From assembly GCA_003245835.1 (NCBI GenBank), contig QKCC01000065.1, positions 1 to 42,528 of the forward strand: 42,528 nucleotides of DNA. The letters are read 5' to 3'. A program made the translations under genes and the position numbers. Below the pieces are notes generated by a model. It saw only the letters and a program-made list of their open reading frames with translations, was not told the origin of the DNA and ran no database searches. Each line of letters opens with the position of its first letter. The first letter of the stretch is position 1. Shown here one piece after another: positions 33,592-37,803 of the stretch. The stretch is from Spirochaetales bacterium (lineage in GTDB: Bacteria; Spirochaetota; Spirochaetia; UBA9216).

Positions 33592-33640
33592 AATTCGATT
33601 ATCGGTGTTTGGATGTATGAAGTTGATTTGGCAGTTAAAA

Positions 33641-33727
33641 TCGAACAAATACGCAGCCTCTCTGCCGCCGAAAAACCTCGCCCTGATTGTCGAAACTTCA
33701 TTAAATATTCGACCAAATAGTCGAACA
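33641..33727. promoter_or_regulatory. Candidate upstream activating sites for the sigma-54 regulator
   Basis: TATTCGAC-CAAATA-GTCGAACA (33706-33727) is a near-perfect dyad with core TTCGAC-N6-GTCGAA. A related half-site, TCGAACAAATA, lies at 33641-33651 and matches TCGACCAAATA of the dyad at 10 of 11 bases. The dyad is centred about 140 bp upstream of the predicted sigma-54 start, a usual distance for enhancer sites. Confidence 0.55.
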
Positions 33728-33830
33728 TTTTTCTTATGAATTCTTTTAAAGCGGCAAAGCATAACTTTTTAACAATCATAACTCCTTACTGGATATGCAT
33801 TTAGTAAACTTACCCTGAAACCTGCGACCA

Positions 33831-33847
33831 TGGCACACTAATTGCAT
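33831..33847 (+). promoter_or_regulatory. Sigma-54 promoter
   Basis: TGGCACACTAATTGCAT matches the -24/-12 consensus TGGCAC-N5-TTGCA exactly, with GG and GC 10 bp apart. It predicts a start near 33857 and a leader of about 24 bases to ATG 33881. The adjacent divergent gene encodes a sigma-54 activator. Confidence 0.85.
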
Positions 33848-33880
33848 TATATTATTATCCTGACAATTAGGAGGGATTTT

Positions 33881-34159
33881 ATGAACCAGGAAAACAGATC
33901 GATAATCAGCCGAACCTTAATGGAACTCATAGTTGATAATTACCGAGAAATTGAGCAGAAATACCCCGGATATACAATGAAAAAAGAAGCCGCCACACTG
34001 ATTACGTATTGTCACACCAGGGGCTGGCCGGACCTGCTTAAGAGGGCAATGAGCATCTTTGGAATGGATGTCCTCGACATAGTTCCGGATCGTCTTTTTA
34101 TCCAGATAAACAATAAAGACATAAAAACAATGGCGGCTGCTGTTCATAATATGGAATAG
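33881..34159 (+). CDS. 92-residue protein of unknown function, sigma-54 controlled
   Basis: The start is ATG 33881 after AGGAGGG; the track start at 33842 lies inside the sigma-54 promoter. The 92-residue product has no signal peptide or membrane helix and looks mostly helical. It begins MNQENRSIISRTLMELIVDN and contains YREIEQKYPGYTMKKEAATL and a short strand-like segment RLFIQINNK. I do not recognise a family. The strong ribosome site and the consensus sigma-54 promoter indicate a conditionally and probably highly expressed small protein. The thioesterase gene follows after 131 bp and may share the transcript. Confidence 0.85.
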   Translation: MNQENRSIISRTLMELIVDNYREIEQKYPGYTMKKEAATLITYCHTRGWPDLLKRAMSIFGMDVLDIVPDRLFIQINNKDIKTMAAAVHNME

Positions 34160-36125: not shown

Positions 36126-37445
36126 ATGAATATGAACATGAGTACTGTTATTTCCATAGCAGTTATTGTTTCAAGCCTGATGACACTATATATATTTTTT
36201 CTGTGGCTCGGATACCGTGAAGACAACCGTGCTGTCGGGTATTTCCTCTCCGGTTTTATAATTGTCAATATCGCCTACATAATTCTGAATTTTTCGGGTA
36301 AATGGCCGTTTTTCCTGACCGGCGTATTTGCAAATACGATATTCATCGGCGGGTATGCCATAATGTTTATTGCTTTTGCGTTCTTTTTAAAAGGAAATAT
36401 TGTTTTAAGAGAAATCGCAATCCTGATTATAATTACAGCGGGCGTACTGGTTGAACAGATCATCTTCAGCTATATATACCCGTCTATCAGGATAAGGCTT
36501 ATTCTGCTGTCAGGAGCAACCTCTTTTATTCAGCTTTTTATCGCATTTCTGATCTTCAAATACCGGAAGAGTCTTGGAACAGTCCATTTTTTTCTTATTC
36601 CGGTCATTCTTATAAGGGTCCTGAGTTCTTTATCCAGTGCTGTTCTGGCAATATTTGCGGACCCCGGCAAAACTATAGCCAGCCTGTCATGGTACCATGT
36701 AATAACTACAGTATTGGGAACTTACCTTTTAACATTCTGGCCTTTCGGCTTCGCCATGATGATTCTCAATCGAAAAAAAGCCGTTGCTGAAGAGCGCACC
36801 AGGGAAGCAGGGCTTCTGCTTCGAGAGCTGCATCACAGGATGAACAACAACATGAGCATGATCATTTCACTGATCGACTGGCAGATTTTAAGATCCGATG
36901 AACATCAGTCCGGTACGGCTGATGTAATTAAGGCCCAGCTCTCCGCCGCAAAAGCCAGGATTCACTCCCAGGCGCTGGTCTACCAGAGGCTTTTAACAGA
37001 GGGAAACCTCACCAGGATTATGCTGAATGACTTCATTTCCAGCCTGTCTGAAAAAATTGAATCAGAATTCATGCAGGACGACCGGAATGTCCGGATTAAC
37101 CTTACCCTGACCCCAATCCTGGTAAGTATCGAAACAGCAGGCTATGCCGGACTCATCCTGAATGAGCTTCTGGCCAACAGTTTCACGCACGCGTTCCCGG
37201 ACAACAAAACCGGTGAGATAAACATTACCCTTGAAACAAAGCCGGATAATAATATATTTTTAACATATAGTGATAACGGACCCGGGGCCGAGAAAATCAA
37301 GCCGGGTGAATTTCAGGGGATGGGAACGGAACTGGTACAAATTCTGGGAGAACAACAACTGCGCGGGCAAATGACCATGGATTATAAAAACGGATTTTTC
37401 TTTTCCCTGATTTTTAAAAATGAGCTGCCGAAAACAAGGATTTGA
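36126..37445 (+). CDS. Seven-helix membrane sensor histidine kinase (HisKA_2 type)
   Basis: A 439-residue inner-membrane protein. Residues about 1-220 contain seven hydrophobic helices with short loops, so the signal is probably sensed within the membrane or at its surface. Then follow the HisKA_2 phospho-acceptor box LLRELHHRMNNNMSMIISL at about residue 236 and an HATPase_c domain with N-box LNELLANSFTHAFPD and G1 box YSDNGPGA. It would phosphorylate the receiver protein encoded 1 bp downstream. Three closely spaced ATG codons (MNMNM) leave the exact start open by four residues. The signal is unknown. Confidence 0.92.
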   Translation: MNMNMSTVISIAVIVSSLMTLYIFFLWLGYREDNRAVGYFLSGFIIVNIAYIILNFSGKWPFFLTGVFANTIFIGGYAIMFIAFAFFLKGNIVLREIAILIIITAGVLVEQIIFSYIYPSIRIRLILLSGATSFIQLFIAFLIFKYRKSLGTVHFFLIPVILIRVLSSLSSAVLAIFADPGKTIASLSWYHVITTVLGTYLLTFWPFGFAMMILNRKKAVAEERTREAGLLLRELHHRMNNNMSMIISLIDWQILRSDEHQSGTADVIKAQLSAAKARIHSQALVYQRLLTEGNLTRIMLNDFISSLSEKIESEFMQDDRNVRINLTLTPILVSIETAGYAGLILNELLANSFTHAFPDNKTGEINITLETKPDNNIFLTYSDNGPGAEKIKPGEFQGMGTELVQILGEQQLRGQMTMDYKNGFFFSLIFKNELPKTRI

Positions 37446-37446
37446 A

Positions 37447-37803
37447 GTGGGACAAAAAAAGCTGTTGATTGTCGAAGATGAGATTATTATTGCCATGAAT
37501 CTGCGAAGACAGCTGGAAAAAAATGGCTTTGAGGTCTGCGGGATCGCCGGCGGAGAAAAAGAAGCTGTCGATTCCGTTCAGCTGCATCGCCCGGACACGG
37601 TCCTGATGGATATAAACCTGCGCAACAATGAATCAGGAATAAACGCCGCCAACGAAATCCGCAAACAGGAACACATCCCGAATATCATCTACATTACAGG
37701 CTACGGTGACGAGGAACTGATCCGTTCCGCCTGGAATACCGGACCGTTGGCAGTTCTCAAGAAACCTGTCATTATGGAAGATATTATCAGGCTGCTGGCA
37801 TAG
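37447..37803 (+). CDS. Stand-alone response regulator receiver protein
   Basis: GTG 37447 after AAGGA, 1 bp behind the kinase stop, gives 118 residues; the track start at 37420 lies inside the kinase gene. It is a single CheY-like domain: LLIVEDE (acidic pocket), phospho-acceptor Asp in VLMDINLRNNESG, switch Thr in IIYITGYG and lysine in LKKPV. There is no output domain, so it must act by protein contact, or pass the phosphate on. The Gly-Tyr-Gly-Asp-Glu after the switch Thr is common in receivers paired with HisKA_2/HWE kinases. Co-transcribed with the kinase. Confidence 0.92.
   Translation: MGQKKLLIVEDEIIIAMNLRRQLEKNGFEVCGIAGGEKEAVDSVQLHRPDTVLMDINLRNNESGINAANEIRKQEHIPNIIYITGYGDEELIRSAWNTGPLAVLKKPVIMEDIIRLLA

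Follow-up and report, generated by a model that had tools for sequence, protein, structure and literature searches.

A predicted sigma-54 circuit at a spirochaete orphan gene, with a regulator and enhancer dyad that recur beside different targets

The stretch of DNA analysed here (hereinafter the window) is 42,528 nucleotides long and represents contig C65 of the 4.43-Mb draft genome of a Spirochaetales bacterium. At the locus of interest the gene of a response regulator, P0002, is divergently arranged with that of a small orphan protein, P0001; a -24/-12 promoter and two dyads lie between them, a hot-dog/thioesterase-like gene, P0003, follows the small gene, and a histidine kinase gene lies farther along (Table 1). 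Contamination was considered in view of the estimate of 7% for this genome and of one window kinase and one SPFH protein without matches in four congeneric genomes at the thresholds used. However, the contig is probably native, because its GC and tetranucleotide make-up match that of other contigs in the assembly (correlation 0.971).

Table 1. Coordinates of the features at the P0002–P0001 locus and nearby, in positions of the window
Feature	Position	Strand	Remarks
NtrC-type response regulator P0002, 461 aa	32206..33591	-	Receiver, AAA+ sigma-54 interaction domain, Fis-type HTH
Second dyad CTCGCC-N6-GTCGAA, CTCGCCCTGATTGTCGAA	33677-33694		One mismatch from TCGAC-N6-GTCGA
First dyad TTCGAC-N6-GTCGAA, TTCGACCAAATAGTCGAA	33708-33725		Perfect; conserved beside orthologous regulators
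Sigma-54 promoter -24/-12, TGGCACACTAATTGCA	33831-33846	+	Exact match; rpoN in genome
Orphan protein P0001, 92 aa	33881..34159	+	AGGAGG ribosome-binding site just upstream of ATG
Hot-dog/thioesterase-like protein P0003, 141 aa	34291..34716	+	4HBT_2 E 0.0063, below curated cut-off
HisKA_2 histidine kinase	36126-37445		2.5 kb away; end overlaps receiver-like ORF
Receiver-like ORF	37420-37803		Overlapped by HisKA_2 kinase

An earlier, sequence-only reading of this DNA had assigned the divergent gene to an NtrC-type activator with a GAFTGA loop and a Fis-type DNA-binding domain, and both the Pfam domains and the translation agree with it. P0002 matches Response_reg (1.2e-22), Sigma54_activat (1.2e-68) and HTH_8 (1.3e-08), all above the curated cut-offs, and its translation displays GAFTGA as well as the DDD and a 10-residue stretch of the receiver, from which a phosphorylatable aspartate is predicted. 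The best NCBIfam models are AtoC and ZraR, with bit scores below the equivalog cut-offs of AtoC (412.7 vs 714), ZraR (404.1 vs 760) and also NtrC (389.1 vs 558.6). The named records among its closest relatives are spirochaetes.

The element before the small gene, previously described as a consensus sigma-54 promoter, does match the consensus: it has zero mismatches and is the sole exact -24/-12 site of the window in a pattern scan. Across the genome there are seven exact TGGCACN5TTGCA sites as compared to none for a reversed-pattern control, and the same genome encodes sigma-54 itself (rpoN; Sigma54_DBD E 4.2e-56). Judging from the position of the promoter, transcription would be expected to start near 33856.

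The first dyad, too, is present exactly as originally claimed. Its center lies about 140 bp before the predicted transcription start and about 165 bp before the P0001 start codon, and the 18-bp pattern is not repeated exactly anywhere else in the 4.4-Mb genome. The related half-site that had been noticed alongside it exists at 33690, but is better read as part of the second dyad, the start of which lies 31 bp, or three helical turns, from that of the first. The predicted enhancer is, hence, a helically phased dyad pair, which had not been foreseen. By sequence, the candidate enhancer dyads fall within the distance of about 50–250 bp upstream of a -24/-12 promoter that is expected of a sigma-54 enhancer circuit. 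Within the window the dyad pattern occurs twice at two or fewer mismatches, with 1.89 occurrences expected; since the relaxed pattern is no commoner there than by chance, the window alone cannot settle the status of the dyad.

A search of the class with P0002, covering a sample of 395 genomes with loci cut at contig ends, recovered 34 matches at E <= 1e-106 in 32 genomes, counting that of the window; there is none in the 4 other searched genomes of the same genus. With each locus oriented by its regulator, sigma-54 sites of the form TGGCA-N7-[TGC]GC were sought within 500 bp. Such a site adjoins the regulator in 26 loci, including that of the window, either divergently upstream or in tandem downstream of it; six further orthologue loci, some truncated where the contig stops, lack a strict site beside the regulator. 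Between regulator and promoter the dyad TCGAC-N6-GTCGA is exact in 16 of these 26 loci and present with at most one mismatch in 23, the exceptions being L077, L093 and L094. Both patterns, that of the promoter and that of the dyad, were fixed once the first loci had been seen, and the spacing and shuffle controls followed this choice: of 312 tests at the twelve other spacings between 0 and 12, 5 reach one mismatch or fewer, and in Markov shuffles the dyad is exact in 0.04% and has at most one mismatch in 1.1%. Although related genomes are not independent samples, the dyad is shared by regulators only 46–60% identical to P0002, which come from deeply separated clades. Because it recurs in exact or near-exact form beside orthologous regulators, unlike the other spacings and the shuffles, the dyad is very probably the enhancer recognized by P0002, as far as comparison of sequences can tell.

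The CTCGCC form of the second window dyad is also found in L085, L088 and L092, and a TTCGCC form in L081. Where loci have two dyads, their starts are 20–22 or 31–32 bp apart, i.e., multiples of the helical turn; L134, with overlapping matches 12 bp apart, and L091, with a third, overlapping match, depart from this phasing. In one locus the dyad is separated from the sigma-54 promoter by an inverted repeat (GGTGTCAATACCCC ... GGGGTATTGACACC; L010:1290-1380), perhaps a small mobile element, which could account for the greater dyad–promoter distance at this locus.

To assign the targets, the fetched loci were searched with the proteins of the tandem operon of L148 and with STAS and lipoprotein queries, the ORFs of the window being included in the same database. 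Most tandem loci contain pilin-like and chaperone genes, along with usher-like genes wherever the fetched sequence extends far enough; such a pilin-like/PapD-chaperone/usher-like operon 3' of the regulator is the predicted target in the majority of the genomes. Divergent loci of one family are matched by the STAS query and also contain a giant Ig-repeat lipoprotein; L098, L099, L132 and L134 show the lipoprotein match only. No window ORF matches any of these target queries at E <= 1e-3, and P0001 as a query matches itself alone among the fetched loci. When mapped on the regulator tree, the eight target/arrangement labels need seven changes, the minimum possible; thus, the arrangement follows descent. 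The clade of the window regulator has mixed targets, uniting it with G036 (a tandem pilin-type operon), G080 (at a contig edge) and the Ig-lipoprotein group, from which it follows that targets have been exchanged within the clade. That orthologous regulators control different genes, as these neighborhoods predict, is the second feature that the sequence-only reading did not anticipate. The L148 operon (L148:6473-11266) is a spirochaete operon coding for pilin-like, PapD-type chaperone, 824-aa usher-like and SCPU proteins; its domain matches are to PapD_N and SCPU, and at E <= 0.01 Pfam does not recognize the usher-like protein as an usher.

The own genome offers a further view of the specificity of the dyad. 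A scan for it near other -24/-12 sites, which had been put forward as a check, returns the window's site alone among the seven exact ones; it is the only one with a dyad within 350 bp, the other six having at best 3–4 mismatches. The remaining exact TCGAC-N6-GTCGA dyads lie inside predicted ORFs (L117, L118 and L119) or in DNA that reads like coding sequence (L115). A search with PF00158 gives 25 matches in this genome, the weakest of which are probably other AAA+ proteins. ORFs bearing GAFTGA or GAYTGA are seen beside an exact sigma-54 site in L001, L005, L006 and L007, and a Sigma54_activat match lies close to one in L003; local activator–promoter pairs seem to be common in this genome. In L006 (G000:C271), the exact site precedes a nifH-like and two short PII-like genes, recognized by eye from their translations, with a sigma-54 activator gene just upstream of the site; the organism may fix nitrogen.

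The small gene at the center of the locus looks genuine by its codon usage: P0001 has a score of 0.206, gene chunks of the window average 0.172 and non-coding frames -0.089, and no tested non-coding frame reaches the P0001 value. It had been described as lacking a recognisable family, which all the sequence and structure searches made uphold: relatives are absent from Pfam, NCBIfam, PHROGs, PDB sequences, viral contigs, phages and plasmids, as well as from 148 related genomes and a genome-contig collection, so that the gene is found in one genome only. The model obtained by single-sequence structure prediction is helical, but its confidence is low (mean pLDDT 64) and it has no meaningful fold match in the PDB; for these reasons we claim no fold. 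P0001 itself is most likely small, soluble and cytoplasmic. P0003 begins 131 bp 3' of it on the same strand, and a terminator scan found no terminator-like site between the two; it could possibly be co-transcribed with P0001 by read-through.

As to the input of the regulator, the earlier statement that no kinase is adjacent holds for the immediate neighbors of P0002, which include no cognate kinase; it has to be qualified by the HisKA_2 kinase lying 2.5 kb off. Together with the receiver-like ORF that it overlaps, this kinase apparently forms a separate two-component pair. We do not favor it as the partner of P0002, because its other matches listed among the 32 regulator-holding genomes have 25–38% identity and are mostly restricted to the C-terminal part, and because it overlaps a receiver gene of its own. 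Beyond the spirochaetes, in KSB1, Calditrichota, Bacteroidota and Ignavibacteriota, most of the examined regulator genes come directly after a long ORF, and the only such ORF scanned, that of L129 (KSB1), is a PAS/HisKA/HATPase kinase. A search of ten spirochaete genomes with its sensor part gave no match in the own genome and a single weak one, in G080, confined to residues 301-381.

Taken together, we consider it quite likely that P0002, the two dyads, the -24/-12 promoter and the P0001 gene constitute a local sigma-54 activation circuit. In the proposed mechanism, P0002 would be phosphorylated by an unlinked donor, bind both dyads, three helical turns apart, and assemble as an AAA+ oligomer; the DNA would then loop over the approximately 105 bp between dyads and promoter, and RNA polymerase–sigma-54 would be opened at the -24/-12 site, turning on the 92-aa gene and perhaps P0003 by read-through. 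Binding, phosphorylation, looping, the transcription start and sigma-54 dependence are all inferred here. The dedicated circuit that had been postulated gains support from the recurrence of the dyad, with its 6-bp spacer, beside orthologues near -24/-12 promoters. Its description as self-contained stands for the regulator, enhancer and promoter, which are all local, but not for the signal input, as no cognate kinase was found. Counting against the circuit are the lack of a kinase match, the orthologue loci without the dyad or without a strict sigma-54 site, the restriction of the P0001 gene to a single genome and the situation in G036, the closest orthologue with an intact downstream neighborhood, where the promoter lies 3' of the regulator gene and another target is served.

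Alternatively, the dyads might be an operator with which P0002 mainly regulates itself, the P0001 gene being a minor or accidental target. They do lie about 85–135 bp upstream of the P0002 start codon, and in divergent loci they are found between the two genes. In tandem loci, however, they are placed 3' of the regulator and 5' of the sigma-54 promoter of the target, where autoregulation is not an obvious role, and in the window a perfect -24/-12 site and a good ribosome-binding site precede the P0001 gene; we regard this explanation as improbable. Equally poor are the prospects of P0003 being the main target and the P0001 ORF a leader rather than a functional protein. The proximity of P0003 on the same strand, the lack of a terminator-like site before it and the absence of P0001 relatives would fit such a reading, whereas the strong ribosome-binding site of P0001 and its codon score, which falls in the range seen for genuine genes, speak against it, as does a sigma-70-like TTGCAC-N17-TACTAT of its own upstream of P0003 (noticed by eye, below the threshold of the scan). 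A reading in which P0001 is transcribed from an ordinary sigma-70 promoter and the dyad represents a terminator or a chance palindrome is highly improbable: the TTCGAC dyad scored as terminator-like, its relaxed count in the window is that of chance and the -24/-12 site shares bases with a 9-of-12 sigma-70 match, but the dyad bases and spacer recur beside orthologous regulators and the region's two sigma-70 matches are no excess over the 3.1 in shuffles.

For the favored sigma-54 circuit, the role of its output invites some speculation. P0001 might act in the cell-surface or attachment response that the P0002 family seemingly controls elsewhere, though we think this unlikely. Less likely again is the bolder conjecture that a core repeatedly joined to surface-related operons in spirochaetes has here been joined to P0001 to do the same job by another mechanism, which would make P0001 a new kind of attachment or envelope effector. 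In any case, P0001 gains a candidate promoter and regulator through which the condition of its expression could be found. More generally, the analysis defines a group of spirochaete sigma-54 activators for which TCGAC-N6-GTCGA, frequently present as helically phased pairs, is the predicted enhancer, and for which there is a testable set of targets. It provides a clear case of regulatory rewiring, with regulator and enhancer retained and the target replaced, and putatively ties a diverged spirochaete pilin/PapD-chaperone/usher-like operon to sigma-54 control.

In its architecture P0002 resembles the NtrC/AtoC/ZraR-type regulators, sharing the receiver, the AAA+ domain with GAFTGA, the Fis-type HTH and dyads upstream of a -24/-12 promoter; it differs from them in scoring far below their cut-offs, in having no adjoining kinase and in its TCGAC-N6-GTCGA dyad. 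The regulators of KSB1, Calditrichota, Bacteroidota and Ignavibacteriota are 48–54% identical to it in the full-length loci examined and have a similar HTH, but are set apart by the preceding long ORF, and none of those examined has TCGAC-N6-GTCGA beside it at one or fewer mismatches. Among spirochaetes, Rrp2 of Borrelia burgdorferi is likewise a response regulator and NtrC-like sigma-54 activator. Its activation of rpoS is described in a reference title as enhancer-independent, with a 78-bp upstream region sufficing (PMC11109971); it acts without an enhancer, unlike the P0002 loci, which keep conserved dyads. For TTCGAC in connection with sigma-54, titles and abstract openings in the literature contain no recognisable description, and neither the GTCGA nor the TCGAC half appears in the main text of PMC4641369 on Desulfovibrio vulgaris. 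According to PMC4641369 and PMC6615313, the targets of sigma-54 activators of Desulfovibrio vulgaris and Clostridiales adjoin the activator, being divergent, downstream or in the same operon, and frequently possess more than one enhancer site, located for the most part 100-250 bp from the promoter; the layout and enhancer distances of the window agree with these accounts. This kind of circuit is, therefore, already known, and what is new is the retention of regulator and enhancer with an exchanged target, along with the orphan protein itself.
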